Assembly (NCBI RefSeq): GCF_008795985.1
Contig: NZ_VMHP01000002.1
Span: 744,001 to 808,000 of the forward strand
Origin: Marinobacter halotolerans
GTDB taxonomy: Bacteria > Pseudomonadota > Gammaproteobacteria > Pseudomonadales > Oleiphilaceae
Direction: 5' to 3'
Length of the DNA stretch: 64,000 nt
This document shows, piece after piece, positions 6,780 to 47,214 of the stretch (its first letter is position 1; every line of letters begins with the position of its first letter). The position numbers and the translations under genes are program-made. A model generated the notes under the pieces. That model was not told where the DNA came from. It did not search any database and saw only the letters and a list, made by a program, of their open reading frames with translations.

Positions 6780-7960
6780 AACCCCAGATAAAAATCCCCG
6801 CCGCCTATATGCGCGGCGGCACGTCAAAAGGCGTTTTCTTTCGCCTGCAGGATTTACCTGAGATTGCACAGCAGCCCGGCAAAGCGCGGGATGAACTGCT
6901 TCTGAGGGTCATCGGCAGCCCTGACCCCTACCAGAAACACACCGACGGCATGGGCGGCGCCACCTCCAGCACCAGCAAAGCGGTGATTCTGGCGGCGCCT
7001 ACCGAGCCGGACCACGATGTCGACTACCTGTTCGGCCAGGTCTCCATCGACAAACCCTTCGTCGACTGGAGCGGCAACTGCGGCAACCTGAGCGCCGCTG
7101 TCGGGGCCTTTGCCATTAGCGGCGGATTTGTTAGCCCGGACCGCATTCCGGAGAACGGCACCTGCACGGTACGTATCTGGCAGGCCAATATTCGCAAAAC
7201 GATCATTTCCCATGTGCCCATCACCAACGGCGAAGTGCAGGAAACCGGCGATTTTGAGTTGGACGGCGTGACTTTCCCGGCGGCAGAAATCAAGGTGGAA
7301 TTCATGGACCCGGCGGACGGCGAGGGCGCCATTTTCCCCACCGGCAACCTGATCGACGATCTCGAAGTGCCCGGCCTGGGCTCGCTGCAGGCGACCATGA
7401 TCAACGCCGGCATTCCCACCATCTTCCTCAACGCCGAAGCCATCGGCTTCAAAGGCACCGAATTGCAGGAGGACATCAACAACGACCCGGGCGTGCTGGA
7501 GACATTTGAAACCATTCGTGCCCACGGTGCGGTAAGAATGGGTCTGATAGACAACATCGAACAGGCAGCAAGCCGGCAGCACACGCCGAAGATTGCGTTT
7601 GTCGCGGAACCGACCGATTACCAGGCTTCCAGCGGCAAACAGATCAATGCAGACGACGTGGACCTGCTAGTGCGGGCGCTCTCCATGGGCAAACTCCATC
7701 ACGCGATGATGGGAACCGCCGCCGTGGCGATTGCCACCGCCGCAGCCATTCCCGGAACCGTGGTGAACCTCGCCGCCGGTGGCGGGGACCGCACTGAAGT
7801 CGTGTTCGGTCATCCGTCCGGAACCCTGAAAGTAGGCGCAGAGGCAGAGATCACTGACGGTAACTGGGCGGTGAAGAAGGCGATCATGAGCCGAAGTGCC
7901 CGGATTTTGATGGAGGGCTCGGTGCGGATTCCCGCGTCAGATTTTTTAACAGGTGAATAA
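6776..7960 (+). CDS. prpF: 2-methylaconitate cis-trans isomerase
   Basis: PrpF converts the trans-2-methylaconitate made by AcnD to the cis isomer used by the hydratase. The 394-residue protein begins with the family signature PAAYMRGGTSKGVFF, followed by DGMGGATSSTSK and SGNCGNLSAAVGAFA, and has the duplicated diaminopimelate-epimerase-like fold typical of PrpF. Its ATG overlaps the acnD stop. The last 26 bp overlap a predicted PrsR box for the next gene. Confidence 0.95.
   Translation: MKPQIKIPAAYMRGGTSKGVFFRLQDLPEIAQQPGKARDELLLRVIGSPDPYQKHTDGMGGATSSTSKAVILAAPTEPDHDVDYLFGQVSIDKPFVDWSGNCGNLSAAVGAFAISGGFVSPDRIPENGTCTVRIWQANIRKTIISHVPITNGEVQETGDFELDGVTFPAAEIKVEFMDPADGEGAIFPTGNLIDDLEVPGLGSLQATMINAGIPTIFLNAEAIGFKGTELQEDINNDPGVLETFETIRAHGAVRMGLIDNIEQAASRQHTPKIAFVAEPTDYQASSGKQINADDVDLLVRALSMGKLHHAMMGTAAVAIATAAAIPGTVVNLAAGGGDRTEVVFGHPSGTLKVGAEAEITDGNWAVKKAIMSRSARILMEGSVRIPASDFLTGE
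7935..7951 (+). promoter_or_regulatory. PrsR-type box (weak) for PEP-CTERM gene at 8063
   Basis: CGTCAGATTTTTTAACA matches the window-derived consensus TGTC[G/A]-N6-TTTACA with two mismatches. It lies inside the 3' end of prpF, 56 bp upstream of the -24 GG of the sigma-54 promoter. Confidence 0.4.
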
Positions 7961-8004
7961 AACGCCTGCTTTGTAAATATCTGACATAGGGCGCTTTCCT
8001 TTAT

Positions 8005-8021
8005 CTGGTTTGGTTTTTGCG
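8005..8021 (+). promoter_or_regulatory. Sigma-54 promoter for PEP-CTERM gene at 8063
   Basis: CTGGTTTGGTTTTTGCG has GG (8007-8008) and GC (8019-8020) separated by exactly 10 bases, the invariant -24/-12 geometry of RpoN promoters. It sits 42 bp upstream of the ATG. Confidence 0.6.
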
Positions 8022-8062
8022 TTGTGAAGAATTCATCAATGGAAATCACGGAGGAAGTGACA

Positions 8063-8947
8063 ATGATGAATCACAACGCAAAAAAACTTGCCGCAGCGGT
8101 TAGTTTCAGCCTCTTTGCCGGCAGTGCAGCCGCTGTGCCGTTTTCAGAAATCAGGATCGGTGACAACGACGGGTTTGGCTATGACGCTGACCCCAATTTC
8201 GCGAGCCTCACCGGTGATGGTGGCGCAGCCGATCGGAATTCAGATGGCCATCTGGGTCCTACGGATGTCTTGCCCAGCCACAATGGCGACAGCACCGTTG
8301 CGACCGGTTCCGGTGACGATTTCGATAATCGTAATGGGGAGTCTGTGTCAGGCACTGGTTTTACAGATACGGGAACCCAGGGCACAGAGTTTACCGATAT
8401 CAGCCTGTCCACCAGTTACGATTCGTCTTCCTCGAGCAACCAGGTGTATAACGCAAACGATGGAACGTCAGGTAGCGGAGGTACTTTCCCTGCGGGTTCG
8501 TCCACAAGCCTGCCAAACCAGCCTGGTTTCTCTTTCCTTTTCGAAGTATCACAGTCAGACATTTTGGCTGGGACACCCATCTTCTTTAACATGGTCTTCG
8601 CGGACTATGACGTTACTCCGGCCGCTATCGACTTTGTTTTTGCGTCTGGCAGTAAAACAATTGGCGTCACTCCGCAGAACAACAGCTCCAACGATGGGTT
8701 GATTCAGGGCGCATTCGCCACTCTGGATTTCTATGACGTGTTCACAAACACTGGCAGTGGCATCTGGGGTGGCGAGGTAGCTGTAAACTTCGACGCTCCA
8801 AGGGAGCCTTACACCGCATTTGACTATGTTGAACTGAGTGTGGAACCTCTGGTTGTGGACGTTCCTGAGCCCGGCACTCTGGCGCTTTTTGCGCTAGGCC
8901 TGACAGGGCTTCTGAGTGTGAGAGGTATGTCGCGCAGGGCGGCGTGA
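8063..8947 (+). CDS. PEP-CTERM sorting domain protein (secreted, Asp/Ser-rich)
   Basis: This exported protein of about 294 residues has an N-terminal Sec signal (KKLAAAVSFSLFAGSAAA) and a C-terminal PEP-CTERM anchor: VPEPGTLALFALGLTGL followed by basic residues. XrtA should recognise and process it. The body is acidic and rich in Gly, Ser and Asp, without cysteine and without an enzyme motif. The start at 8063 is preferred over an upstream in-frame start at 8024 because GGAGGA stands 8 bp before it and the signal peptide begins there. It is unrelated to propionate metabolism although it follows prpF. A sigma-54 promoter precedes it and a terminator follows. Confidence 0.9.
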   Translation: MMNHNAKKLAAAVSFSLFAGSAAAVPFSEIRIGDNDGFGYDADPNFASLTGDGGAADRNSDGHLGPTDVLPSHNGDSTVATGSGDDFDNRNGESVSGTGFTDTGTQGTEFTDISLSTSYDSSSSSNQVYNANDGTSGSGGTFPAGSSTSLPNQPGFSFLFEVSQSDILAGTPIFFNMVFADYDVTPAAIDFVFASGSKTIGVTPQNNSSNDGLIQGAFATLDFYDVFTNTGSGIWGGEVAVNFDAPREPYTAFDYVELSVEPLVVDVPEPGTLALFALGLTGLLSVRGMSRRAA

Positions 8948-8978
8948 TGCAGATTGGTTTTGTTTAAGTGGTACGGAA

Positions 8979-9004
8979 AACCGGGGCAGTTGCCCCGGTT
9001 TTTG
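8979..9004. terminator. Rho-independent terminator (bidirectional)
   Basis: AACCGGGGCA and TGCCCCGGTT pair in a strong GC hairpin followed by TTTTG. It lies between two convergent PEP-CTERM genes (8063 and 9021) and can serve both. Confidence 0.88.
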
Positions 9005-9020
9005 TTGTAGCCATGAAATC

Positions 9021-9659
9021 TCAGGCCTTGCGGCGTGAGAGGCCGAGGCCCAGCAGGCCAAGCCCCATCAGGGCCAGGGTTGCTGGCTCCGGAACCGCTG
9101 TGGCGGTGATGCTGAAGCCGGTACGGCCGCCGTGATCTTCTCTAAGCAGCTGCAGGTAGTGGGTGCCAGCGCCCAGGGTTGTTCCAAACGAATACTCCCC
9201 AGCGAAGTCGCCACCGGGTGCCATGGCACCAAAAACGTAGCCGCCGTTGATCCAGGCATAGATTCCGTTGTCGATTCCGATATCAACCGTCACTGTGGCA
9301 GACTCGGTGAGTTCGAACTCATAGATGATCGCAGTCTCGTGGTTCACGGTCCATGTAGCGGGAATGTCCATCAATCCTGACCAATTAGCCGAGAGATTCG
9401 CAGGATCGGTCAGCCAGTTGCCCAGCGCTGGGGTTGAATCCAGAGTCGGCTCGCTCAGCGGATTTTGAAGCGGGTCACCCTCAGAAACGTTTGGTGCAGG
9501 GAAATAAACCGGGTCTGATCCATCGTAGGTTGAATAAAGATCGCCCAGATTATTGTTGTAATAACCCTGTGTGGAACCGTCGATGATCACGGTCGCAGAG
9601 GCAACACTGGCAAAAAGGCTCAGGGCGGCGCCGGCGAGGATTTGATGGGATGTTTTCAT
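9021..9659 (-). CDS. PEP-CTERM sorting domain protein (beta-rich)
   Basis: The 212-residue secreted protein has a signal peptide (MKTSHQILAGAALSLFASVASA) and the sorting signal VPEPATLALMGLGLLGLG with a C-terminal RRKA. The middle (TVNHETAIIYEFELTESATVTVDIGIDNG...) is beta-strand-like with paired glycines and aromatics, resembling carbohydrate-binding folds of this class; no enzyme motif is seen. GGAGTAAG precedes the ATG. It is convergent with the gene at 8063 and divergent from prpD. Its sigma-54 promoter and PrsR box lie in the prpD upstream region. Confidence 0.9.
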   Translation of the reverse strand: MKTSHQILAGAALSLFASVASATVIIDGSTQGYYNNNLGDLYSTYDGSDPVYFPAPNVSEGDPLQNPLSEPTLDSTPALGNWLTDPANLSANWSGLMDIPATWTVNHETAIIYEFELTESATVTVDIGIDNGIYAWINGGYVFGAMAPGGDFAGEYSFGTTLGAGTHYLQLLREDHGGRTGFSITATAVPEPATLALMGLGLLGLGLSRRKA

Positions 9660-9705
9660 AACTTACTCCGTTGACTTCATGGGGATACTACCAACCCAGT
9701 CGTCT

Positions 9706-9723
9706 AAGCAAGTTTGAAGCCAA
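9706..9723 (-). promoter_or_regulatory. Sigma-54 promoter for PEP-CTERM gene at 9659
   Basis: Read on the minus strand, TTGGCTTCAAACTTGCTT is a near-consensus -24/-12 element (TTGGC...TTGCT) with GG-N10-GC spacing. It ends 47 bp upstream of the ATG. Confidence 0.78.
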
Positions 9724-9784
9724 GAAAATAAATCTATTTAAAACATGGCTCTAGGGGGTTTCCTGGTCAAGCTACTCCAGGAAG

Positions 9785-9801
9785 TGTAAATAAAACCGAC
9801 G
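9785..9801 (-). promoter_or_regulatory. PrsR-type box for PEP-CTERM gene at 9659
   Basis: On the minus strand, CGTCGGTTTTATTTACA matches TGTC[G/A]-N6-TTTACA with one mismatch. It lies 64 bp upstream of the -24 GG, the distance seen at several other PEP-CTERM genes in the window. Confidence 0.68.
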
Positions 9802-9875
9802 TATCTGGGTTCGCTGAACTCAGCGGCCAAATAGTCTAGGCTGATAGTAGTGCCAATCGCAGGAGTATCCAGCGT

Positions 9876-11360
9876 ATGACCACCAACGCCGAACAGAACC
9901 AACGCCCTGATTACGATCAGGTGATCCAGCAAATCGCCGATTACACCCTTAATTACCGCATAAGCAGTGAGGAAGCCTGGAACACGGCCCGCTACTGCCT
10001 GATGGACACCCTTGGCTGCGGGCTGCTGGCCCTGCGCTTCCCGGAATGCACCAAACATCTGGGGCCACTCGTGGAAGGCACGCTGGTTCCCCACGGCGCG
10101 CGAGTGCCAGGCACCCAGTTCCGACTGGACCCAGTGAAAGCCGCCTGGGACATTGGCTGTATTATTCGCTGGCTGGATTACAACGACACCTGGCTGGCAG
10201 CAGAGTGGGGGCATCCCTCGGATAACCTGGGCGGCATTCTGGCGGTTGCGGACCATCTCTCCCAGAAGCGCATTGCGGAGGGCTACGCGCCAATCACCGT
10301 AAAATCAGTGCTGGAAGCCATGATCATGGCCCACGAGATCCAGGGCGTGCTAGCGCTGGAAAACTCCTTTAACCGCGTCGGGCTGGATCACGTGGTATTG
10401 GTGAAGGTGGCCTCTACGGCCGTCTGCGCCAAGCTCATGGGCGCCAACCGCGACCAGATGTTGTCCGCCCTGTCCCACGCCTGGGTGGATGGCCAGTCGT
10501 TGCGAACCTATCGGCATGCGCCCAACGCCGGCTCCCGTAAATCCTGGGCGGCTGGTGATGCAACCTCTCGGGCGGTAAGGCTTGCGGACATGGCCATGCG
10601 GGGCGAAATGGGCGTACCGGGTGCCCTGACCGCGCCCCAGTGGGGCTTCTACGATGTATTGTTCAGCAAGACCAACAAAGACCAGAAGCTGAAGCCGGAC
10701 GACAAGCGTCAATTTTCTTTACCACAGGACTTCGGCTCCTACGTGATGGAGAACATCCTGTTCAAGATTTCGTTTCCAGCAGAGTTCCACGCCCAGACCG
10801 CGGCCGAAGCGGCTGTTCAGCTGCACCCCCAGGTGAAGGGCCGGCTTGATGAGATTCAGAAGATCGTGATCACCACCCACGAATCCGCCATCCGCATCAT
10901 CTCCAAGCAGGGCAAGCTGGCCAACCCGGCGGACCGGGACCACTGCCTGCAATACATGACGGCCGTCCCGCTGATATTCGGTTCGCTAACCGCTGAACAC
11001 TATGAAGACGAATTTCACCAGACCCATCCGGAAATCGATCGCCTTCGGGACGTGATGGAAGTCGTGGAAGATCCCCGGTACACCCAGGAATATCTGGAGG
11101 CGGACAAACGTTCGATCGCCAATGCTGTACAGGTGTTTTTCACTGATGGAAGCAGCACGGATCAGGTAGCTGTGGAGTACCCCATCGGACACCGCCGGCG
11201 CAGAGAGGAAGGCATGCCGGAGCTGGAAGCGAAATTCGCAAATAACCTGAGGACCCGTTTCCCGCCGCAGCACTGCGAGCGCATTCTGGAGGCTTGCCGT
11301 GGGGGAGTGGTGCTTGAGCGAATGTCGGTGAATGAGTTCGTGGGATTATTTGTGATTTAA
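9876..11360 (+). CDS. prpD: 2-methylcitrate dehydratase (MmgE/PrpD family)
   Basis: PrpD is the iron-independent dehydratase turning 2-methylcitrate into cis-2-methylaconitate, so it duplicates the AcnD/PrpF route. The 494-residue length suits PrpD. Seen are [43 protein letters not shown] (family signature, about residue 90) and the C-terminal MmgE/PrpD helical domain. ATG follows CAGGAG. In related genomes prpD directly follows prpF; here two PEP-CTERM genes and a terminator lie between, so it needs its own promoter, which I could not pinpoint. Its 3' end recurs in broken form at 12341-12569. Confidence 0.92.
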
Positions 11361-11444
11361 GCTCACTGGAACGCATAATCCTGACCCGGAATCCCGAACT
11401 GCGGCTTTTTTTTGGGGGGGATTACCGTTGAGCATTCGAGAAAT

Positions 11445-11461
11445 CCCCGAGCTTATCGGGG
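11445..11461. terminator. Possible weak hairpin between convergent prpD and PEP-CTERM gene
   Basis: CCCCGA and TCGGGG pair around GCTTA. On the minus strand, downstream of the PEP-CTERM gene, it is followed only by ATTTCTC, so termination strength is doubtful. A run of T and G (11406-11420) lies between it and prpD. Confidence 0.35.
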
Positions 11462-11480
11462 ACCCTTACCAAAAAACATT

Positions 11481-12143
11481 TCAGCTGGATTTTTTTCGGC
11501 GAAGGACTCCCAGTCCAATTAAACCGAGGCTGAACATCGCCAATGTACCCGGTTCGGGAACGGAAACCGTGGGAGGTGTCTCTTCCTGCGCGTCCTGGTT
11601 GCCGAATATTTGTGTCCTTATTTCGATGCTGCCACTAGAGTTGAATTCAGGGAAAGAAAACCCGGTTAAATTCTGGTTTTCTTCCAGTGAACGGATACCG
11701 TTTTCTTCTTTGCCACCCTGGCTGAAGTAATAAGAAACACGTGTCGATATATTTGTCGTTAAGCCAAGCCCGTATGTCTTGCCTGTTTCCAGGAACAGCG
11801 ACAGTGCATCTGACTGTTTGAACGTCAAACCATCGTCCGCGAAAGACTTCTCCCCTTGGTACAGCAAGGTCCCACTGTTCGAGTTTGGTCCCTGATCAAC
11901 GTCATAGATCACAAAATTGACGTCGGCATTCTCGGAAAGGTCAAACTCAATAGAAAAACTGGTCAGGTTGGTTCTTTGGTCAACCTCGAAAAACGAAATG
12001 ATTCCTTGATTTCCTCCAACATTAAAAGTGCGATCGAGGTTATTGCTCTCAAAGAGTAGAGTCGACATCGCGATGCTGGGAGATGCTGCCAGGACCGCCG
12101 TGAGAAGAAATGTTGGGCCTGTTCGGTTAGCAGAAAAAAACAT
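11481..12143 (-). CDS. PEP-CTERM sorting domain protein
   Basis: The 220-residue exported protein has a signal peptide (ending about PSIAMS), a beta-rich body (SIEFDLSENADVNFVIYDVDQG...), and the sorting signal VPEPGTLAMFSLGLIGLG followed by RRKKSS. It has no cysteine and no catalytic motif. ACGGAG stands before the ATG. It is enclosed between prpD and a broken copy of the prpD 3' end. Its own box and sigma-54 promoter are upstream, so it is a single-gene unit. Confidence 0.88.
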   Translation of the reverse strand: MFFSANRTGPTFLLTAVLAASPSIAMSTLLFESNNLDRTFNVGGNQGIISFFEVDQRTNLTSFSIEFDLSENADVNFVIYDVDQGPNSNSGTLLYQGEKSFADDGLTFKQSDALSLFLETGKTYGLGLTTNISTRVSYYFSQGGKEENGIRSLEENQNLTGFSFPEFNSSGSIEIRTQIFGNQDAQEETPPTVSVPEPGTLAMFSLGLIGLGVLRRKKSS

Positions 12144-12188
12144 GTTGGTTCTCCGTCCGTGTTGCTTGCAATGGATTCATTCCAAATG

Positions 12189-12206
12189 GGGCAATTATTG
12201 ATCCAA
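12189..12206 (-). promoter_or_regulatory. Sigma-54 promoter for PEP-CTERM gene at 12143
   Basis: On the minus strand TTGGATCAATAATTGCCC gives GG-N10-GC with TTGG and TTGC intact, 46 bp upstream of the ATG. Confidence 0.7.
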
Positions 12207-12269
12207 GACTACATTAACAAGGTGAAATCAGTAACGTAGGTTATTTTCCAAATAAAAGTTTGTTGTATG

Positions 12270-12286
12270 TGTAAATAATGTCGACA
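12270..12286 (-). promoter_or_regulatory. PrsR-type box for PEP-CTERM gene at 12143
   Basis: On the minus strand TGTCGACATTATTTACA is a full match to TGTC[G/A]-N6-TTTACA, 66 bp upstream of the -24 GG. Confidence 0.75.
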
Positions 12287-12340
12287 TGAATGCACACCTT
12301 CACGAATGTCACATTGATTTGCATGCGCTATTCGTATCAT

Positions 12341-12569
12341 CTTCGGTTCGCCAACTGCTGAACATCACGAAGACGGGTTCCACCAGACCTACCCTGAAAT
12401 CGACCGCCGGCGCAGAGAGGAGGGCAGGCGAGAGCTGGAAGCGAAATTCGCCGCCAACCTGCGAACCCGGTTCCCGCCGCAGCACTGCGAGCGCATTCTG
12501 GAAGCCTGTCGTGGGGGGGTGCTTGAGCAAATATCGGTGAATGAGTTCGTGGGGTTATTTGTGATTTAA
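12341..12569 (+). pseudogene. Broken duplicate of the prpD 3' end
   Basis: Translated in the frame of prpD, this stretch reads FGSPTAEHHEDGFHQTYPEID, jumps, then RRRREEGRRELEAKF...NEFVGLFVI and stops at 12567-12569. It aligns with codons near the prpD C-terminus. Relative to prpD an in-frame block of 153 bp (equivalent to 11040-11192) is missing and one valine codon is lost. The match even continues 12 bp beyond the stop (GCTCACTGGAAC). There is no start codon or ribosome site in this frame. It is a non-functional remnant in the promoter-side flank of a PEP-CTERM gene. Confidence 0.93.
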
Positions 12570-12588
12570 GCTCACTGGAACATAACGT

Positions 12589-12613
12589 AAAAACCCCACC
12601 TCAGTGGGGTTTT
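12589..12613. terminator. Rho-independent terminator (bidirectional)
   Basis: ACCCCAC and GTGGGGT form a stem with CTCA loop, flanked by AAAAA on one side and TTTT on the other. It ends the PEP-CTERM gene at 12639 (minus strand). A decayed relative of this element appears at 13570-13595. Confidence 0.85.
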
Positions 12614-12638
12614 GTAACCGCAGTGGCTAGAGCTGGAA

Positions 12639-13310
12639 TCAGGCTTTGCGCCGGCGAGCCAGCCCAAGTCCTGCCAGGCCGAGACCCAGCAAAGCCAGTG
12701 TGCCAGGCTCTGGTACTTCAGTAATCTTGCCGGAGTACAGTAAACCGAATGGGTTAGACGTTGTATCAGTGCCTGAGCCGACTTGATAGGACACCATCTC
12801 GATGGAATAGGTTCCTGCACCGAGTGAAGTGTTGTAGTTATAGCCTTCGTCAACTTCGCATCCAATCGGGCCATTGGCGCAGGTGGATTGAGTGAAGTTG
12901 GCTCCCTTGATCAGGATTCCATCAAAATAAAAATCAGATGTGTCATCGGTCCAGATCCAGAAATCCAGCAGGCCGCTGGAAGAAAGTGTGAAGGTCTCCG
13001 TTACCTTCATGATTGACTGTTTACCGTCCGAATTTTCAGCGCTGCCAGCCCTTGGAGCAAGAACATCCCCTTGATAGCCGGTGTCGTCGTAGGAAACCCA
13101 CACGGATCCTTCATAAGGATTGTTCTCCGGTGCCCATGAGGGATGTGCATCTACCTCTTGCAACGTACACGAATCGCCAGCCGATCCGCCAAACGCTGCG
13201 CCCAGTTCGCATGATGCTGTTCCACCGCCGGAAACGATCGGTGTGGCTGCTGCAAAGGCGGAAAAGCCTAATCCCAGGGCAGCTACCGCCAACGTTGTTC
13301 TGACCTTCAT
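12639..13310 (-). CDS. PEP-CTERM sorting domain protein (four cysteines)
   Basis: The 223-residue secreted protein has a signal peptide (KVRTTLAVAALGLGFSAFAAA) and the sorting signal VPEPGTLALLGLGLAGLG with LARRRKA at the end. Unlike its neighbours it contains cysteines in SCELG, SCTLQ, STCANG and GCEVDEG, which could form two disulphides. The stretch LLDFWIWTDDTSDFYFDGILI resembles sugar-binding PA14-like or related jelly-roll modules (weak inference). GGGAG precedes the ATG. The gene has its own sigma-54 promoter and box upstream. Confidence 0.9.
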   Translation of the reverse strand: MKVRTTLAVAALGLGFSAFAAATPIVSGGGTASCELGAAFGGSAGDSCTLQEVDAHPSWAPENNPYEGSVWVSYDDTGYQGDVLAPRAGSAENSDGKQSIMKVTETFTLSSSGLLDFWIWTDDTSDFYFDGILIKGANFTQSTCANGPIGCEVDEGYNYNTSLGAGTYSIEMVSYQVGSGTDTTSNPFGLLYSGKITEVPEPGTLALLGLGLAGLGLARRRKA

Positions 13311-13380
13311 GTTATTTCTCCCAAAAGCTTGTTTGTGGCGATTGCTGAAATTTTTCGGGCATCGCCCCTGGGGTAAGGCG

Positions 13381-13398
13381 CTGCGAGTTTTATGCCAG
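13381..13398 (-). promoter_or_regulatory. Sigma-54 promoter for PEP-CTERM gene at 13310
   Basis: On the minus strand CTGGCATAAAACTCGCAG has GG-N10-GC spacing and a consensus TGGCA, 71 bp upstream of the ATG. Confidence 0.7.
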
Positions 13399-13461
13399 AT
13401 TTTATAAAGTAGAGACCCCTAAGGGATTTAAGTCTGTTTGTGGTTGCTTTGTCGTTATATC

Positions 13462-13478
13462 TGTAAAAATTATCGACA
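13462..13478 (-). promoter_or_regulatory. PrsR-type box for PEP-CTERM gene at 13310
   Basis: On the minus strand TGTCGATAATTTTTACA fully matches TGTC[G/A]-N6-TTTACA, 66 bp upstream of the -24 GG. Confidence 0.75.
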
Positions 13479-13623
13479 CAATTCATGCTCACGATGACTT
13501 GTCAGGTATCCCGGATGGGAGATGGGTAGGCCTTTCTTTAGTTGGTTTGTTGTCGTTAAGTCTCTAGAAAACAAAAAACCTACCGCAGTGGAATTTTCTC
13601 AATGAGAGTGCCTGAGCCTGAAA

Positions 13624-13855: not shown

Positions 13856-13872
13856 TGTCAACATCCTTTACA
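13856..13872 (+). promoter_or_regulatory. PrsR-type box for PEP-CTERM gene at 14037
   Basis: TGTCAACATCCTTTACA fully matches TGTC[G/A]-N6-TTTACA. Here the distance to the -24 GG is longer, 84 bp. Confidence 0.68.
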
Positions 13873-13953
13873 GAAGCTCTTCATGAAATGTTTGGTCGAA
13901 AATTAACCAGGTGAAATCGAAGCCTTTTCTAGCGATGGCATGCGGGTTGCTAT

Positions 13954-13970
13954 CTGGCTTGTCGAGAGCA
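13954..13970 (+). promoter_or_regulatory. Sigma-54 promoter for PEP-CTERM gene at 14037
   Basis: CTGGCTTGTCGAGAGCA has GG (13956-13957) and GC (13968-13969) 10 bases apart and a good TGGC, but the -12 half is GAGC rather than TTGC. Confidence 0.58.
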
Positions 13971-14036
13971 AGGCTTTCCCAAAAGGACGGGGGCTTTGAC
14001 CACCCACAAAGAAGACGTCATGCAGAGGTGAAAAGG

Positions 14037-14828
14037 ATGAACAGATCCATCGGTTTGTTAATGGGAGCGGTTGTCGCAAGCACTTTTTCTCTGAGTGCAA
14101 CGGGAGCGGAAATCAAGTTTGATGAAAAAAACTACTTTCTGCCGGGCGACCCGACTGACTATGGGGTAGAGGTGAAGTCACCGACACTCTATTACCCGGA
14201 TTTTTCGGTAAGCGCTGGCTATTCCAACAAGAATCTGGCGGACGGTGTTTCCTTCAATCGCGACACGGACATAACAACAGGCGATAACGTAAAGGTCTGG
14301 AGGGATACCGGTCCGGCACATGGTGGTCTTGGTGTCGAATCGGGCTTGACTGGTGATAGTGACAACTTTGAAGGCAGTCTTAATAATAACGTCAACAACG
14401 ACGAGGTTCTGTTTTTTGACTTCAAGAGCATCGTAAGCCTCACGAAAGTCTGGTTGAACGCAGGCGATGATGGAAATCCGGGCAATGTGAGCCCTGGCAA
14501 CAATAGCCACCAGGATTTCTTCACCTCAGATGCAAGCGATGTGTTTGATGTGTTCTTTTCCAATGACGGAAAAAATTACACCTCGATCATGGGCAACACA
14601 GCCCCCCAGGATAGTGGATTCGGACTGGAGCTGTTAACTGTGCTGGATTCTTTGGGTAGCAGTGTTGAGTCGAAATGGTTTGCAGTTTCCCATGTTGGCC
14701 CTGTTGATTCGGTAGGCGGCTACATCGAGAAGATCGAGTACGCAAGCGTACCCGAGCCAGGTACCCTCGCTCTGCTGGGTCTTGGCCTTGCCGGTCTGGG
14801 CCTGTCCCGCAGGCGCAAGCAGGCCTGA
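14037..14828 (+). CDS. PEP-CTERM sorting domain protein
   Basis: This is an exported protein of 263 residues. The start at 14037 is chosen over an in-frame start at 13911 because AGAGGTG lies 6 bp upstream and a clean signal peptide begins here (MNRSIGLLMGAVVASTFSLSATGA); the sigma-54 promoter also falls inside the longer reading frame. The body carries VLFFDFKSIVSLTKVWLNAGDDGNPG, reminiscent of beta-sandwich discoidin-like folds (weak). The tail is VPEPGTLALLGLGLAGLG followed by SRRRKQA. A strong terminator follows, so it is monocistronic. Confidence 0.9.
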   Translation: MNRSIGLLMGAVVASTFSLSATGAEIKFDEKNYFLPGDPTDYGVEVKSPTLYYPDFSVSAGYSNKNLADGVSFNRDTDITTGDNVKVWRDTGPAHGGLGVESGLTGDSDNFEGSLNNNVNNDEVLFFDFKSIVSLTKVWLNAGDDGNPGNVSPGNNSHQDFFTSDASDVFDVFFSNDGKNYTSIMGNTAPQDSGFGLELLTVLDSLGSSVESKWFAVSHVGPVDSVGGYIEKIEYASVPEPGTLALLGLGLAGLGLSRRRKQA

Positions 14829-14845
14829 TATCAGGCTGTAAAATC

Positions 14846-14884
14846 CACCGACAACCCGGAAGGAATCCGGGTTGTCGGTTTTAT
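14846..14884 (+). terminator. Strong rho-independent terminator
   Basis: A perfect 14-bp stem (14847-14860 with 14866-14879) with AGGAA loop, followed by TTTTATTT. It separates the PEP-CTERM gene from the exopolysaccharide operon. Confidence 0.92.
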
Positions 14885-40204: not shown

Positions 40205-40222
40205 AAAATGCGGGCTCCTTCG

Positions 40223-41349: not shown

Positions 41350-41465
41350 GAATAAATCGTTAGACCCTGTGGTAATCGCGCAACTTGAGAGGTTCCGGAA
41401 AGTAGCTCTAAGGCAGTCCTGACGTTGTTATATAAAGCGTCACCGAATTTTACTCATGGGATACG

Positions 41466-42425
41466 CTACCTTCCGCCACCGTTCTTTTCAGCAGGTGGTA
41501 CTCTCTGGCTAGATAATTTTCTATTTTCGTAAATTGCCCCGCGATAAAAATTGGAATTCCATAAGCCTTTGAGCATAGTCTCTTCATTTCCAGACAAAAT
41601 GCCTAGTATTTTTATGAGCCAACCCTCGACTAGTGCTCGATACTGCCACCTTGGAGCCCCAAAGACTATGGGCATGTTTGATCGATCCCTTCGTTTATGA
41701 TCGTTGAATGCATTGGCTCTCCCAAAGCGCTGCGCGCGCCCCGCAAGCCATTTATGAGATAACTGTTCTGGTCTTATTTGATGCTTAACGACGATTGAAT
41801 CCTCAAACCAAAAAAGATGTCCCGCTTCCGCCAAGCGAAAGTTTAACTCGGTCTCGCTTCCCATAATATAGCTGCCAATGCTTGGACCTATGCATTCATT
41901 AAATCGAGCACCTTTTTTAAAAACATCCGATCGTATTGCCATGTTTGCACCCCAAACCATTCCGGGATCCGTTGGTCCCGAGTGCATATCTTCTTTGTGA
42001 AGAGAATAAGCAGGTCCTAGAGGAATCGTCTTTACAATAGCTTCTGGCTTGTCATCCGGCCAATGTGGAATGATTTTTCCACCAAACACCGTGTAGTCCA
42101 ACTTGTTTGTTAATAGTCGTTCGTAACCAAGAAGCAAGTCTGGCGATGCAAGGATGTCGTCGTCCGTGAATACAATGATTTCTCCTAAACAATAAGGTAA
42201 AGCTAGATTTAGCGCGAAGTTTTTACCTTGTTTAGGTTGATGCAAAAGCTTTAAGGGTAGCTTTTTTTTATAAGAATTTATGATCGCAGACGAATTATCT
42301 GTGCTGGCATTGTCAACAGCGATGATCTCCCAGCCGCCTTGGGGCGGTGTAAGCGTAGTGAGGCTCTCAAGCATTGATGGTAGTGTTCGGGAGCCGTTAA
42401 AGGTTGAGAACGCGAGTGTAATCAT
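41466..42425 (-). CDS. Glycosyltransferase family 2
   Basis: This 319-residue GT-A enzyme shows ITLAFSTFNGSRTLPSMLESLTTL, IIAVDNASTDNSSAIINSY, PKQGKNFALNLALPYCLGEIIVFTDDDILASPDLLLGY and MGSETELNFRLAEAGHLFWFEDSIVVKHQI. It shares motif layout with the next gene on the same strand (40411). Base composition is noticeably AT-richer than the core operon. Confidence 0.92.
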   Translation of the reverse strand: MITLAFSTFNGSRTLPSMLESLTTLTPPQGGWEIIAVDNASTDNSSAIINSYKKKLPLKLLHQPKQGKNFALNLALPYCLGEIIVFTDDDILASPDLLLGYERLLTNKLDYTVFGGKIIPHWPDDKPEAIVKTIPLGPAYSLHKEDMHSGPTDPGMVWGANMAIRSDVFKKGARFNECIGPSIGSYIMGSETELNFRLAEAGHLFWFEDSIVVKHQIRPEQLSHKWLAGRAQRFGRANAFNDHKRRDRSNMPIVFGAPRWQYRALVEGWLIKILGILSGNEETMLKGLWNSNFYRGAIYENRKLSSQRVPPAEKNGGGR

Positions 42426-42476
42426 TGATCACCATTTTTTCGTAAATAGAGAGCCACCCTAAATTAATTATCATTT

Positions 42477-43445
42477 TTACTGAATTTGTTTTTTTAAGAC
42501 TTCCCATGTATTATAAGCGTTAAAAACATTCTCGATTTTCAGATCATTTTTATCATTTCTAAGGTTCTCGTGATGAAGGGCGATTTCCTGTGTGTCACGA
42601 ATTGTAATAACGTTTTTATGATTCATTATATCCGATTCTACCTTCTTGCATTGAACTCTATTAAGGAGACTCATTGCTTTGAACCATATGTCGTCTGCAC
42701 CGGGAGCAAGCGCCAGGAAGGCTTCTTCGTTAAAAACCTCATCGTTCAAAGAGTTTGGGGGATATAAAACGCCGCCGACACCTGTTGGGAATACCAGTAG
42801 ACCAGGTTCAATGATACCACTCTCTAAATCCCAGTTTTTATAACGCGCGAGTTTTCCGTTATCGCCAAATTTCATGTAGTGCATTCTGTAACAATGTATG
42901 AAATTTGGGTCCCGAATATAGGATTCATAAAGTTTTCGGAGGAAGCTTCTTGGATAAATTAAGTCGTCGTCAACAGTGACTATAAGATCGTTTGGGTATT
43001 CTTTTAAAGCAGGTATGAGCTTATTATAGGGTCCAATGGGCTTTTTATAGCTTATTTTTAGTCCTCTGTCTGTTAAATTTATTAAGTCTTTTGGTAAATT
43101 TGATGCATCAAAATCTGAATCATCTAAATAAAGGGAAATTCTGTCCGCCTTCAATTCTTGATCCATTAAAGATTGAATTGTTAAATGAACTCTATCAACT
43201 CTGTAAGAATGACTTGTCAGGCTTATCGTTATATTTTTTTCTCTTTCTAGTTTGTTGAGTCCATGATCTTTACTTAGGTAAGATGAGTTCAAGGTATTTA
43301 TATATATTAAATTTTTTTCATTCTGTTTTTTTATTTCCTCTAACGAATTTATTTTGCCTTGAAGCTCAAGACCGATAACGTGAATTTTTCTTATATAAAA
43401 CGGAAAAAATAATAATGTTTTTAGAAAATTTATAACGTTTTTCAT
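42477..43445 (-). CDS. Putative GT2-like glycosyltransferase, very AT-rich
   Basis: The protein of about 322 residues has EKNITISLTSHSYRVDRVHLTIQSLMDQELKADRISLYLDDSDF, DLIVTVDDDLIYPRSFLRKLYESYI (DDD metal site) and FPTGVGGVLYPPNSL, then APGADDIWFKAMSLL with an acidic catalytic candidate. This layout fits a GT-A sugar transferase of a less common family. An N-terminal helix with coiled-coil stretch (GLELQGKINSLEEIKKQNEKNL) precedes it. Start at 43445 is chosen for AAGGA upstream; a longer start at 43502 is possible. Strong A+T bias suggests transfer. Confidence 0.75.
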   Translation of the reverse strand: MKNVINFLKTLLFFPFYIRKIHVIGLELQGKINSLEEIKKQNEKNLIYINTLNSSYLSKDHGLNKLEREKNITISLTSHSYRVDRVHLTIQSLMDQELKADRISLYLDDSDFDASNLPKDLINLTDRGLKISYKKPIGPYNKLIPALKEYPNDLIVTVDDDLIYPRSFLRKLYESYIRDPNFIHCYRMHYMKFGDNGKLARYKNWDLESGIIEPGLLVFPTGVGGVLYPPNSLNDEVFNEEAFLALAPGADDIWFKAMSLLNRVQCKKVESDIMNHKNVITIRDTQEIALHHENLRNDKNDLKIENVFNAYNTWEVLKKQIQ

Positions 43446-43838
43446 CCTGAATCCTTGTTCCTGTTTCGACGCTTTTATTTTTTCGATGGCATAATAATTC
43501 ACGCTGATTCTCTGCTTGCTGTGATGAATTTGGCGGCGTCACAGCGTCTTTGAGTTTATTAAACGAATTCTTTCGATGTTAGCGTAAAAATTGGTCTGGT
43601 CGCTACTCTTTAATCGCCAGAGGTTTTGGTTAACTCCACCAAGTTATGCTACGTCGCAGTAGTGAAATTTGTGAGCTGTGAGTGCTATTATAGCTCCAGT
43701 TTTACGATTGCAACGCATTTAGGTTTTTTCGCGGCTCATGTGCTTTTGGCTGGCGCTAACCAATTGATACGTATAGAGTAACATCATGCCTTGGAGGCTT
43801 CCAACGGCCAATTCATTTTTTCAGGGATGTAAAGCTCA
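43446..43838. other. 393-bp divergent intergenic region upstream of xrtA
   Basis: No gene is seen. It separates the AT-rich minus-strand glycosyltransferase from xrtA. The only promoter-like sign is an extended -10 (TG-C-TATTAT, 43683-43691) pointing to xrtA, without a clear -35. No sigma-54 promoter or PrsR box was found here, in contrast to the PEP-CTERM genes. Confidence 0.4.
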
Positions 43839-45407
43839 ATGAGCGTCGGGTGGAGTCGAATTTCTTACAGTATTAGAGCCTGTTTCCCCTTTGTTATTAT
43901 CCTCGTCGCGCTGGCTTCACTGTTGTGGAGTACAGTGGCTGGTGTAGTGAATCGGTGGTTTAAATATGATGAAGCATACTCCCATGGTTTTCTACTACTT
44001 GGGGTCTCCATTTTGCTTGTGGCTCGTTCGGCTAGGCGCCATTCGGTAACGCTAGGCTTCTATCCCATATGGTTAGTGCCCTTCGCCTTTGCTTTGGCAG
44101 CATACAGTCTGGGCGAAATTATGAGGGTACAGGCACTCAGTGAGCTGACGATTGTTCCGTTGATTCTGGGTGCCGCCGCCATACTTCTTGGTTGGAACCA
44201 AGTGAAACAGTTCATTATTCCGGTAGGCATTCTTTTTCTTGCGGTACCCTTCTGGGACTATTTGTCATGGACGCTTCAAATCATGACTGTCGAAGTAAAC
44301 CGACTATTACTAGGTCTTTTTGATATTAATTTTCGGGTAGAAGGTATTTTTGTTCATCTGATCGACATCGGTATTTTCGAGGTTGCAAATGGTTGTTCCG
44401 GTCTCCGCTATTTACTGGTTGGGCAGCTGCTTGCTCTAATTTATGGTGAGCTTAATCTTAAGCGTGTTACATCCAGACTCTGGCTTTACCTGGTCGCTGT
44501 CGGGCTGGGGCTCGTCGCTAACTGGATTCGTGTGTTCGTGATTATCTATGTTGGCCACGAGAGCAATATGCAAAGCAATCTTATCAATGAGCATGACGAT
44601 TTCGGCTGGATGGTTTTTGCTGTCACTCTCATTCCTTTATTTATCGTCGGACGATTATTGGAAAAAAAGGAGTCGAACGGAGAAATTGAAGCCAACAATA
44701 AAAGCCTGACTCCCAGTCCCGTATTAGCTAGTTCTTCTTCGGGAAATCCTTCGATAGCGGTTGCAGCGATCGGAGCATTACTTTTCCTCACTTGGATTGC
44801 CTTGCCTGCTGCCCCAGAATCTCGCGAAGTTGGAGCGTTTAAGCACGATGCAGTGTTAGTTTCAGAGGAGCTATGGCTTCCGTTGTTTTCTCGCAGTCTT
44901 GCCGGCTGGACTCCGATTGTCGAGCGGCCGGATCGTTTGTTGGAGCGTAGTTATGTAAGTCGAGAGGGGTTAAGTCCTGCAGGCGACCCCAATGAAACTC
45001 TTTTAGTTGGGTTGTATAGTTATGATGCTCAATGGGCCGGGCATGAGCTGGTACATTACAACAACCGGCTTTACTCATCCTCGGGTTTTGTAGTTCAGGA
45101 TGTTTTTGACATTACTTCTATCGAAGGGGTGCCTATGTCCGGAATGACAATCAAGCGCCTCGGCTCGGAGGACTTTATTCATCTGGCATTTGCTTATTAT
45201 GTGGAGGGCAGTTGGGAAAACAATGAACTTGAAGCAAAGCTGGCGCAACTGCCTGGAATACTCAACAGGCGGACAGATGCCTCTTTGCTTGTTGTGGCGT
45301 TACAATGTGTTGATTGCAATGCACAGGAACGGCTGGCGACATTGAGCCCCAAGATTCATTTAAGGGCGGAAGAATATCTTGATCAGCTTTATCTGCAAAA
45401 GGATTAA
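43839..45407 (+). CDS. xrtA: Exosortase A fused to EpsI domain (XrtA)
   Basis: XrtA is the inner-membrane transpeptidase-like enzyme that processes PEP-CTERM proteins. The 522-residue protein has about eight helices in residues 15-275. The catalytic triad is present: Cys186 (EVANGCSGLRYL), Arg231 (ANWIRVFVI) and His252 (NEHDDFGW). After a hydrophobic segment near 310-330 the C-terminal ~190 residues form the EpsI (DUF3485-type) periplasmic domain. It stands alone between the glycosyltransferases and two PEP-CTERM genes and is followed by a terminator. Its likely substrates are the seven PEP-CTERM proteins here. Confidence 0.95.
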   Translation: MSVGWSRISYSIRACFPFVIILVALASLLWSTVAGVVNRWFKYDEAYSHGFLLLGVSILLVARSARRHSVTLGFYPIWLVPFAFALAAYSLGEIMRVQALSELTIVPLILGAAAILLGWNQVKQFIIPVGILFLAVPFWDYLSWTLQIMTVEVNRLLLGLFDINFRVEGIFVHLIDIGIFEVANGCSGLRYLLVGQLLALIYGELNLKRVTSRLWLYLVAVGLGLVANWIRVFVIIYVGHESNMQSNLINEHDDFGWMVFAVTLIPLFIVGRLLEKKESNGEIEANNKSLTPSPVLASSSSGNPSIAVAAIGALLFLTWIALPAAPESREVGAFKHDAVLVSEELWLPLFSRSLAGWTPIVERPDRLLERSYVSREGLSPAGDPNETLLVGLYSYDAQWAGHELVHYNNRLYSSSGFVVQDVFDITSIEGVPMSGMTIKRLGSEDFIHLAFAYYVEGSWENNELEAKLAQLPGILNRRTDASLLVVALQCVDCNAQERLATLSPKIHLRAEEYLDQLYLQKD

Positions 45408-45453
45408 CCGATAGGGTTTTGATGAACTGTCATACACATGACCAAAAATAAAA

Positions 45454-45480
45454 AACGGCACCCTCGGGTGCCATTTTTTA
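45454..45480. terminator. Bidirectional rho-independent terminator
   Basis: GGCACC and GGTGCC pair around CTCG, with A5 before and T6 after. It is shared by convergent xrtA and the PEP-CTERM gene at 45496. Confidence 0.9.
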
Positions 45481-45495
45481 TGTAGCGTAGACCGA

Positions 45496-46104
45496 TTAAG
45501 CTTTGCGCTTACGAGCCACACCCAGACCTACCAGACCGAGACCCAGAAGCGCAAGGGTACCTGGCTCAGGCACTTCAACCTGGCTAACGCGGATAACCAT
45601 GTCGTCGTGGTTGTCGTCATTATTATTGCCGTCATCATCGAACGCCAGGAACAGATCGCCGCTAAATTTAGTGGAACTGGTCGCAACGAAGAAATTAACA
45701 AGCGCCGTGTTTGTCGGGTTGCTACCATTTACAGCCGAGCCGTTCACCGGACTCATGAAAGAAAAGTCCAGCACGCCATCTGCAAACGTGGCAACGTGGG
45801 ACTGCCCGGCAGCAAATGTGTTGTTACTGAACACTTCGACGCCGTTTACAAAGAATTTGTTGTTGAAGCTTGCTTCAAAACCCAGAAATTCGAACATAAC
45901 GGTCGTACTGCCAACAGATTTCAGGTCGGCACCGAAACCGTATGGGGCGACTTCAGTAACGCTACCGAGAATGTCGTTGGTGACGCCTGGGACTGCTTGA
46001 GGAATTGTTCCACCAATTCCGTCTTCAACAATCAGCGCCGCGTTAGCTGCAAAAGACAGGCCCAAGCCAAGCGCCAGTGCAGTTACGGTGTTAGTGATTT
46101 TCAT
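45496..46104 (-). CDS. PEP-CTERM sorting domain protein with DDNHDDM motif
   Basis: This 202-residue secreted protein has a signal peptide (MKITNTVTALALGLGLSFAANA), a beta-rich body (TTVMFEFLGFEASFNNKFFVNG), an acidic block LAFDDDGNNNDDNHDDMVI just before the anchor, and the sorting signal VPEPGTLALLGLGLVGLG plus ARKRKA. The acidic block may bind calcium. Start at 46104 follows AAAGGAG; the longer frame to 46131 has no support. The gene at 46420 is a close relative, sharing the acidic motif and the tail. Confidence 0.92.
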   Translation of the reverse strand: MKITNTVTALALGLGLSFAANAALIVEDGIGGTIPQAVPGVTNDILGSVTEVAPYGFGADLKSVGSTTVMFEFLGFEASFNNKFFVNGVEVFSNNTFAAGQSHVATFADGVLDFSFMSPVNGSAVNGSNPTNTALVNFFVATSSTKFSGDLFLAFDDDGNNNDDNHDDMVIRVSQVEVPEPGTLALLGLGLVGLGVARKRKA

Positions 46105-46154
46105 CTTTGTTGCTCCTTTAATTCTTGCCAAGGGTACTGCTCCTTTCTAATAAG

Positions 46155-46172
46155 AAGCATGACCTATGCCAC
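46155..46172 (-). promoter_or_regulatory. Sigma-54 promoter for PEP-CTERM gene at 46104
   Basis: On the minus strand GTGGCATAGGTCATGCTT has GG-N10-GC and TGGCA...TGC, 51 bp upstream of the ATG. Confidence 0.72.
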
Positions 46173-46235
46173 AAACTGATTTGCTATCAAAAACAGAAAG
46201 TTGGATTTCCTATGCGGGAGCTAAAAAACGCATGA

Positions 46236-46252
46236 TGTAAAGAAGGCTGACA
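46236..46252 (-). promoter_or_regulatory. PrsR-type box for PEP-CTERM gene at 46104
   Basis: On the minus strand TGTCAGCCTTCTTTACA fully matches TGTC[G/A]-N6-TTTACA, 66 bp upstream of the -24 GG. It lies at the end of the decayed prsT fragment. Confidence 0.74.
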
Positions 46253-46254
46253 GT

Positions 46255-46369
46255 CTCCAGCATTTATTGCTGAGCTTTCCAGTATCTTTCCGTCCTCGAG
46301 CAGAATCCACTCATCGAAATCCATAACCGTCGCGCTGGCGGGGCTTAGCTTGAGAGCTCGGTAGACAAG
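46255..46369 (-). pseudogene. Decayed fragment of prsT (TPR protein) 3' region
   Basis: The minus strand reads LVYRALKLSPASATVMDFDEWILLEDGKILESS, which aligns with AERAYKLSPNNAAVVDTYGWILFKGGKIEESLP near the C-terminus of PrsT encoded at 47285-49981. A stop codon lies directly upstream and no start is present. Beyond ILESS the sequence jumps to DNA resembling the region just after the real prsT gene, including the PrsR box, so the last part of the gene was deleted. It lies between two related PEP-CTERM genes. Confidence 0.85.
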
Positions 46370-46374
46370 CTAGT

Positions 46375-46398
46375 AAAAAACGGCACCCGAAGGTGCCG
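46375..46398 (-). terminator. Rho-independent terminator of PEP-CTERM gene at 46420
   Basis: On the minus strand CGGCACC-TTCG-GGTGCCG is followed by TTTTTT. Stem sequence is nearly that of the terminator at 45454, as expected for a duplicated gene unit. Confidence 0.9.
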
Positions 46399-46419
46399 CT
46401 TACAAGTAGTGCTATACGG

Positions 46420-47079
46420 TTAGGCTTTGCGCTTACGAGCAACACCAAGACCTACCAGGCCCAGACCCAGAAGTGCCAGCGTACCTGGTTCCGGAATCTG
46501 AGAAGCTTTGACCATTATGAGCATGTCATCATGGTTGTCGTCGATTTGATTATTGTCATCCAGACTGAGGATCATGTAGTCCTCTCCACCCTCAAAGATG
46601 GTGAAGTTGAATTCTGGAGCTAGGTTACCGCTACCAAGGTTCGATACTGATCCGGCAAATGCTCCGCCGCTTTTAACGGACGAGAATCCGAAATCAATAT
46701 TACCGAGACCCCCTGAGTAAACGGTACTCCAAGTTGAGCCAAGCGCTGATGTGCCAGTGTTGAACCTTTCAATACCTTCATAAAGGAAAGAGTTGGTGTT
46801 GGCAGCCTCTTTACCAAGGTATGTAAAGGTCAGTCTGAAAGGGCCAGTTGAAGTTGATACAACTGAGTGATCCAGCAGTACTGAGTCACCTGCGAAGTAG
46901 AGCTGAGGGCCCAAAAATGTGCCCTGACCGTCTCCGTTCGTATAGCTGTTGTCAGCTGCAACTGCGGATGGTGTTGCCGCAGGTGCGGTGTTTGGGGCTA
47001 CATCAATGAACGCAGCCTGAGCAACACCTGACAAGCCGGTAATCGCTGTGCAGAGAAGAGCCTGAGTAAATTTTTTCAT
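46420..47079 (-). CDS. PEP-CTERM sorting domain protein with DDNHDDM motif
   Basis: The 219-residue protein has a signal peptide (MKKFTQALLCTAITGLSGVAQAA), a beta-rich body, the acidic block LSLDDNNQIDDNHDDMLIM near the end, and the sorting signal IPEPGTLALLGLGLVGLG plus ARKRKA. GGAGGAG lies before ATG 47079; an in-frame upstream start at 47097 is unlikely. It directly follows prsT in the same direction but has its own sigma-54 promoter and box. It is a paralogue of the gene at 45496. Confidence 0.92.
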   Translation of the reverse strand: MKKFTQALLCTAITGLSGVAQAAFIDVAPNTAPAATPSAVAADNSYTNGDGQGTFLGPQLYFAGDSVLLDHSVVSTSTGPFRLTFTYLGKEAANTNSFLYEGIERFNTGTSALGSTWSTVYSGGLGNIDFGFSSVKSGGAFAGSVSNLGSGNLAPEFNFTIFEGGEDYMILSLDDNNQIDDNHDDMLIMVKASQIPEPGTLALLGLGLVGLGVARKRKA

Positions 47080-47129
47080 GTCGAAACACTCCTCCATTGA
47101 GTGGTTTGGCTAATACGCCAATTTATCGA

Positions 47130-47147
47130 CAGCATGCGCCATGCCAA
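47130..47147 (-). promoter_or_regulatory. Sigma-54 promoter for PEP-CTERM gene at 47079
   Basis: On the minus strand TTGGCATGGCGCATGCTG closely fits the -24/-12 consensus (TTGGCA...TGCT) with GG-N10-GC spacing, 51 bp upstream of the ATG. Confidence 0.78.
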
Positions 47148-47197
47148 ATCCCAAGGCTTTGTTTCTACAAAACAAAAAATGGGATGTGAAGGTCGCA

Positions 47198-47214
47198 TGT
47201 AAAAGAATTCGACA
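47198..47214 (-). promoter_or_regulatory. PrsR-type box for PEP-CTERM gene at 47079
   Basis: On the minus strand TGTCGAATTCTTTTACA fully matches TGTC[G/A]-N6-TTTACA, 53 bp upstream of the -24 GG. Confidence 0.75.

Follow-up and report, generated by a model that had tools for sequence, protein, structure and literature searches.

A near-palindromic box locked in orientation and helical spacing upstream of sigma-54-type promoters of PEP-CTERM genes in Marinobacter halotolerans and other bacteria with PrsR

Seven PEP-CTERM genes were found in a 64,000-nucleotide stretch of the Marinobacter halotolerans genome (contig NZ_VMHP01000002.1, positions 744,001 to 808,000; called the window here and numbered from its first letter), each preceded by a 17-nt box, weak in one case, and a -24/-12 element of the sigma-54 type. 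The same window carries the genes for the kinase PrsK and the activator PrsR. It is very probable that PrsR binds the box, that a sigma-54 promoter lies at each PEP-CTERM gene, and that box and promoter are joined in a loop of fixed geometry, probably with a bend made by integration host factor (IHF). An earlier note, made from the letters of the window, had interpreted the genes as a PrsR regulon; that interpretation was supported and was right, but it was not new, being a rediscovery of the system of Haft et al. 2006 (PMC1569441). Three features look new: the box keeps to spacings about one helical turn apart and to a single orientation, a third element resembling a bend site often lies between box and promoter, and the box also stands before a regulator gene in the genus.

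The box pattern, TGTCRN6TTTACA, had six exact matches in the window, compared to 0.03 expected from 100 dinucleotide shuffles. Five of these, at 12270(-), 13462(-), 13856(+), 46236(-), and 47198(-), lie at PEP-CTERM genes, and they were recovered as the earlier note had listed them, together with a box with one mismatch at 9785(-) and a box with two at 7935(+). As it had also claimed, GG-N10-GC was present behind the box at 7/7 genes, but the element at 13954 was the wrong choice for the box at 13856, because it scored 15.5/19 compared to 19/19 for TGGCATGCGGGTTGCT at 13936-13951 (all -24/-12 elements were scored out of 19). The odd box-to-promoter distance of 84 bp in the note is gone, that gap being 63 bp; in window order, the gaps from the end of the box to the T of TGG were 54, 62, 64, 64, 63, 64, and 51 bp. 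The sixth exact match, at 14837, was rejected as a regulatory site. It falls in a terminator-like repeat after PEP-CTERM gene 5, the best -24/-12 element in the scan there scored only 13/19, and the match is probably due to chance.

For the boxes of the window as a whole, chance or low-complexity matching has next to no probability as an explanation. At up to two mismatches 43 boxes were counted, compared to 22 in the shuffles, and this background may apply to the box at 7935, which is not significant alone because about 22 such matches per window are expected. However, the number of exact boxes and the fact that five stand before PEP-CTERM genes, 51 to 64 bp from a -24/-12 element, mean that a chance origin of the exact boxes at genes is already refuted. 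The gap of 54 bp at the 7935 box is 1 bp beyond the range of 50 to 53 bp found at 12 other genes and at most 2 bp from the spacing comb described below, and therefore spacing does not exclude it. The earlier statement that all seven genes share the box holds for six; for the gene at 8063-8947, with its weak box, "six, perhaps seven" is the safer wording.

The prsK/prsR pair reported in the window was confirmed by matches over cut-off to TIGR02916 and TIGR02915, as was prsT by TIGR02917; prsR and prsK are neighbors on the same strand. PrsR has a receiver domain (PF00072), a sigma-54 AAA+ domain (PF00158), and a Fis-type helix-turn-helix domain (PF02954), all over cut-off. At the sigma-54 contact loop it reads GSFTGA, and the 20 other PrsR proteins aligned read GAFTGA. 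The seven PEP-CTERM proteins all carry a C-terminal PF07589 match over cut-off and account for 7 of 17 such places in the genome, 5 of 22 PF07589 places having been dropped as below cut-off.

The earlier note had looked to the rest of the genome for hits upstream of other PEP-CTERM genes, and these were found. There were 14 exact boxes in the genome, compared to 1 for the pattern read backwards; 8 precede PEP-CTERM genes, 1 precedes the gene of a VpsR-domain regulator, and 5 are apparently chance matches. Four of the last group (C1:409375, 501769, and 1824611 and C2:1040278) each overlap, on one strand, a mechanically called open reading frame of at least 80 amino acids and have no -24/-12 element above 14.5/19 in the scan; they look like chance and were treated as such. 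Of the 17 PEP-CTERM genes of the genome, 14 have a box that departs from the pattern at one position at most, paired with a -24/-12 element of at least 15/19, and 2 have a two-mismatch box (the 7935 gene and C2:1172772).

Across the order, 54 of 145 genomes have PrsR. Exact boxes numbered 415 in these genomes, compared to 171 for the backwards-pattern control, and 226 compared to 216 in the 91 genomes lacking prsR. The excess differed between the two groups with a Mann-Whitney p of 2e-15, a value that ignores kinship between genomes, and taken together the genomes tie the box to PrsR. A different Fis-type activator might bind the box, with PrsR merely traveling along, and 11 further proteins of the M. 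halotolerans genome do give strong matches to the sigma-54 activator region of the PrsR model. This seems very improbable, given that the box excess tracks TIGR02915 over the 145 genomes and that a single protein of the genome exceeds the TIGR02915 cut-off. In addition, DVUA0057 of Desulfovibrio vulgaris, a predicted PEP-CTERM regulator, enriched its five predicted PEP-CTERM targets in DNA-affinity-purified chip (DAP-chip) experiments (PMC3333781).

The geometry of the promoters was analyzed in 175 PEP-CTERM genes: 17 from M. halotolerans, 58 of 59 from 12 genomes of the order with prsR (one place at a contig edge was left out), and 100 of 113 from the class, where 9 places were omitted (contig edges, very short frames, and one near-duplicate) and 4 more were unfetched. 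A pair was defined as a box with no more than one mismatch plus a -24/-12 element at a distance of 20 to 150 bp, and no spacing was preferred in the search. The 7935 box was outside the own-genome stretch scanned and, with two mismatches, would have gone uncounted anyway. A pair was found at 112 of the 175 genes. The backwards box gave 0, the opposite strand 2, and three shuffles 0.

With one gap per gene, taken to its best -24/-12 element, the 112 gaps fell into narrow classes: 41 bp (1 gene), 50-53 (12), 61-66 (60), 72-76 (26), 85-87 (4), 95-97 (5), and 105-108 (4), with the troughs between peaks empty. Spacings above 110 bp vanished once each gene was represented in this way. The best comb period was 10.99 bp (10.8-11.2 in a genome bootstrap), and the vector strength was 0.84, whereas the null maximum was 0.39 for jittered sets (2000 of them) and 0.29 for smoothed sets (5000). 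All but one of the gaps (111/112) were inside a quarter-period of the comb, the sole exception being a gap of 66 bp. Omission of the main peak left the vector strength at 0.85 (n = 52). A phylum search supplied 20 further PEP-CTERM genes, after 6 of 26 new loci were excluded because their genomes were already in the set. With a -24/-12 threshold of 14 rather than 15, a pair was found in 11 of these, all scoring at least 16 and all at most 2 bp from the comb (p 9e-5; p 0.011 for the five that lie off the main peak). The AT content of 42 spacers showed no clear autocorrelation peak at 10 to 11 bp.

A comb could also arise by inheritance, if the regulon is real and a few ancestral promoters of fixed spacing were copied with no helical rule. 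The predominance of spacings 63 and 64 (44/112) and the near-duplicate loci L068 and L069 would fit such a history. However, the side peaks occur in 25 genomes, one gene per genome from 33 genomes still gave a median vector strength of 0.81, and no gap of the 112 fell in a trough, so that inheritance of the comb appears improbable.

The logo of 114 boxes is an imperfect palindrome with TGTCRR on the far side and TTTACA on the promoter side, and this near-palindromic box is locked in one orientation. In the 175 genes, exact boxes were 66 forward and 0 mirrored, and boxes at one mismatch were 114 forward and 3 mirrored; all three mirrored boxes were at promoters that also had a forward box, and one was a symmetric site. 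At two mismatches the counts were 130 and 32, a comparison blurred by symmetric sites and chance. A symmetric dimer would be indifferent to orientation; the box is oriented, and therefore the promoter side must matter.

A third element was found between box and promoter. The IHF consensus, WATCARNNNNTTR, was exact in 21 of 107 spacers of 50 to 110 bp, compared to 0.7 expected from dinucleotide shuffles and 2/105 in stretches of the same length taken upstream of the box. At one mismatch it was present in 63/107 spacers, compared to 19.8 expected and 14/105 upstream stretches. Fifteen of the 21 exact sites were on the reverse strand and centered 25 to 27 bp above TGG, the remaining six being elsewhere, and the site held its distance to the promoter while the box moved between spacing classes. 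A relaxed form, located at -33 to -31 with at most one mismatch, was present in 32/59 spacers of class 61-66 and 15/23 of class 72-76; the counts at eight control offsets, taken over all spacers, were 0 to 6. In the window, 4/7 promoters have the relaxed form with one mismatch. The unrelaxed counts carry the weight, because the relaxed form was chosen after examples had been seen. These results suggest a site of IHF consensus 20 to 32 bp above -24 in the common spacing classes, which IHF would bind.

The third element might instead be an AT-rich contact of the promoter, for example with the C-terminal domain of the polymerase alpha subunit (alpha-CTD), or the site of another bending protein. 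The stretch just above -24 is generally AT-rich, and the late choice of the relaxed form leaves room for this explanation. We consider it possible but rather unlikely, since the unrelaxed consensus was exact in far more spacers than expected and most of its exact sites shared position and orientation.

The box was also found upstream of a gene that encodes a VpsR-domain activator (PF20161); 64 bp separate this box, at C1:1012893, from TGGCACG. VpsR-type regulators are linked to cyclic di-GMP. In the activator, GAFTHA replaces the GAFTGA of sigma-54 activators, and the gene that follows (L347 8498-9598) matches PF13557. A VpsR-type homologue at E 1e-120 was detected in 18 of 31 genomes of the genus, and the promoters examined were those of these 18, the other 13 being left out. 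All 18 had the box (15 exact, 2 with one mismatch, and 1 with two) at a gap of 63 to 66 bp from TGGYAY, and 17/18 had the relaxed third element at -32 or -33, with no more than one mismatch. Among the nine most divergent loci (49-56% protein identity), agreement was 92% at the box, 100% at TGG, and 60% at the third element, compared to 44 to 51% in other flanking stretches and 43% at random. At the -12 position TGAA was found in 10/18 and GC in only 3/18, so that this is no more than a possible sigma-54 promoter. Co-occurrence with prsR within the genus is uninformative because prsR is present in 30/31 genomes; the sole genome lacking it also lacks a VpsR-type match. Outside the genus, PF20161 was detected in only 4/79 genomes of the same order (3 of 49 with prsR and 1 of 30 lacking it), and the link between VpsR and the box therefore looks genus-level.

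In the mechanism that we favor, PrsK would phosphorylate PrsR, an NtrC-type activator encoded beside its kinase, and phosphorylated PrsR on the box would touch RNA polymerase-sigma54 poised at the -24/-12 element, so that each PEP-CTERM gene would be driven, and its start site set, by its own promoter. Contact would require a tight loop, with the box on one helix face relative to -24 (gaps of about 52, 63, 74, 85, 96, and 106 bp) and in one orientation. In the commonest spacing classes the DNA between box and -24 would be bent, probably by IHF. Consistent with such promoters, pepA of Aquincola is RpoN1-dependent, starts at a -24/-12 element, and has a predicted enhancer (PMC9850573). We also lean, with less assurance, toward a joint reading of the data, in which PrsR enhancers, far from being free-floating, would be rigid stereospecific assemblies (one orientation, one helix face, and, in the common spacing classes, a bend site, probably for IHF, centered 26 bp above -24) and PrsR would have taken over a VpsR-domain gene in the genus, with the same three-part architecture and a degenerate -12, mostly TGAA.

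Several observations weigh against the proposed mechanism. At the thresholds used, no pair was found at 58/167 PEP-CTERM genes in genomes with prsR, and the M. halotolerans gene at C2:696354 lacks a good pair of box and -24/-12 element. A pair was present at 3/8 genes from genomes with no detected PrsR (2 of those 3 genomes are <80% complete), and two genomes lacking prsR are rich in exact boxes: G114 (9 compared to 1 in the control; 83% complete) and G055 (7 compared to 1; 100% complete). No pair was found at the 5 PEP-CTERM genes of two genomes farther away within the phylum. Eleven loci of 5.8 to 21 kb around PrsR relatives (11 of 80, at ≥48% identity) had one pair in 0.37 Mb of strand; in the 2.2 Mb of 67 control loci, 2 pairs were forward and 5 were mirrored, and thus there was no clear excess. 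When two mismatches were allowed and at least 16 was required at -24/-12, a few of 125 pairs fell between the peaks of the comb. The relaxed third element was present in 0/13 spacers of class 85-108 and 2/12 of class 50-53, and 3/7 promoters of the window lack it. The D. vulgaris study states that the binding motifs of regulators such as DVUA0057 were left unvalidated (PMC3333781), and the Aquincola study reports that plasmid-borne prsK-prsR failed to restore floc formation (PMC9850573).

The system to which the window belongs was outlined by Haft et al. 2006, who described a 17-nt motif 1 ending in TTTACA, a motif 2 with -24(GG)/-12(GC), and PrsK, PrsR, and PrsT, with PrsR as a sigma-54 response regulator; the motif was found at 99/167 proteobacterial PEP-CTERM genes, mostly single-gene units (PMC1569441). 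The boxes of the window match in length, in the TTTACA end, and in position upstream of PEP-CTERM genes. Gaps of 51 to 64 bp fit the spacer range of 32 to 92 nt (mean, 62.8 nt; standard deviation, 10.6), although the gap end used here, the T of TGG, may differ slightly (PMC1569441). In the section of that paper on the regulatory site, spacing appears as a mean, standard deviation, and range only, whereas a comb is described here; when its main text was searched by term, IHF and "orientation" were absent and "helical" occurred only in the title of a reference (PMC1569441). The closest parallel for the comb is the LuxO-qrr system of Vibrio, in which 61 natural sigma-54 enhancers, also of the NtrC type, have loop lengths clustered about 11 bp apart (PMC4740811). 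It differs from the PrsR promoters in its activator, its tandem sites, its loops of about 80 to 120 bp, and periodic AT content, a feature not seen in PrsR spacers (PMC4740811). The PrsR promoters have a single asymmetric box and gaps of 41 to 108 bp at many genes in 33 genomes. The third element resembles that of sigma-54 promoters assisted by IHF, for example NifA-nifH, in which a bend site lies between the activator site and -24. A search of the open literature on PEP-CTERM and integration host factor, by title and abstract start, found none on these promoters. For PEP-CTERM and PrsR, no prior account of the comb, the orientation, IHF, or the VpsR link was found in searches of the open PMC literature, most subscription papers being outside the search.

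Table 1. Genes and promoter elements of the window, in window coordinates, with the VpsR-domain activator gene from elsewhere in the genome in the last row
Feature	Position	Strand	Sequence	Remarks
prpF	6776-7960			TIGR02334
Weak PrsR-like box	7935..7951	+	CGTCAGATTTTTTAACA	2 mismatches, gap 54; inside 3' end of prpF
IHF-like element	7974..7986	+	TAAATATCTGACA	-32 from TGG, 1 mismatch to relaxed consensus
-24/-12 element	8006..8021	+	TGGTTTGGTTTTTGCG	
PEP-CTERM gene 1	8063..8947	+		PF07589; ATG start picked by eye
PEP-CTERM gene 2	9021..9659	-		PF07589
-24/-12 element	9707..9722	-	TGGCTTCAAACTTGCT	
PrsR box	9785..9801	-	CGTCGGTTTTATTTACA	1 mismatch, gap 62
PEP-CTERM gene 3	11481..12143	-		PF07589
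-24/-12 element	12190..12205	-	TGGATCAATAATTGCC	
IHF-like element	12226..12238	-	TACGTTACTGATT	-33, 1 mismatch to relaxed consensus
PrsR box	12270..12286	-	TGTCGACATTATTTACA	Exact, gap 64
PEP-CTERM gene 4	12639..13310	-		PF07589
-24/-12 element	13382..13397	-	TGGCATAAAACTCGCA	
PrsR box	13462..13478	-	TGTCGATAATTTTTACA	Exact, gap 64
PrsR box	13856..13872	+	TGTCAACATCCTTTACA	Exact, gap 63
IHF-like element	13904..13916	+	TAACCAGGTGAAA	-32, 1 mismatch to relaxed consensus
-24/-12 element	13936..13951	+	TGGCATGCGGGTTGCT	19/19; supersedes 13954
PEP-CTERM gene 5	14037..14828	+		PF07589; ATG start picked by eye
Exact box match	14837..14853	-		Terminator-like repeat after PEP-CTERM gene 5
Exosortase, EpsH family	43839..45407	+		TIGR02602, 130 bits (cut-off 105.6)
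PEP-CTERM gene 6	45496..46104	-		PF07589; ATG start picked by eye
-24/-12 element	46156..46171	-	TGGCATAGGTCATGCT	
IHF-like element	46191..46203	-	CAACTTTCTGTTT	-32, 1 mismatch to relaxed consensus
PrsR box	46236..46252	-	TGTCAGCCTTCTTTACA	Exact, gap 64
PEP-CTERM gene 7	46420..47097	-		PF07589; adjoins prsT, own predicted promoter
-24/-12 element	47131..47146	-	TGGCATGGCGCATGCT	
PrsR box	47198..47214	-	TGTCGAATTCTTTTACA	Exact, gap 51
prsT	47285..49981	-		TIGR02917, 410 bits (cut-off 312)
prsR	49997..51388	-		TIGR02915, 667 bits (cut-off 502.6)
prsK	51502..53649	-		TIGR02916, 656 bits (cut-off 300)
VpsR-domain activator, outside window	L347 7129-8505; C1:1013128			PF20161, 55 bits (cut-off 23.7)

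The ATG start was used for PEP-CTERM gene 5 because the listed GTG start at 13911 overlaps the promoter, and 47079 is a plausible alternative start of PEP-CTERM gene 7. Against the XrtA model the exosortase scored 185 bits, under the cut-off of 208. A methylcitrate (prp) gene group (window 3055-12581) hosts PEP-CTERM genes, in the order 2-methylcitrate synthase, acnD, prpF, two PEP-CTERM genes, and prpD (9876-11360). Stretches of the 3' part of prpD (10974-11372) recur about 1.2 to 1.4 kb downstream (12339-12581) with 81-91% identity, and PEP-CTERM gene 3 sits between prpD and this remnant, a sign of local duplication. In four other genomes (G008, G134, G034, and G078), many PF07589 tails are VPVP, VPAP, or VPLP-like in place of PEP; box and promoter are nevertheless kept at some genes there. 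In Malonomonas rubra, an exact box (L256 2109) lies 93 bp above a -24/-12 element, near a regulator 44% identical to PrsR.

More than 100 natural promoters in which one activator would act at quantized distances make the phase and orientation rules of sigma-54 enhancers testable with a few reporters. The VpsR-type target points to a way in which the genus may coordinate its exosortase surface proteins with the control of exopolysaccharide. If this is true, PEP-CTERM sorting and a second, VpsR-type matrix program would be wired into one cascade.

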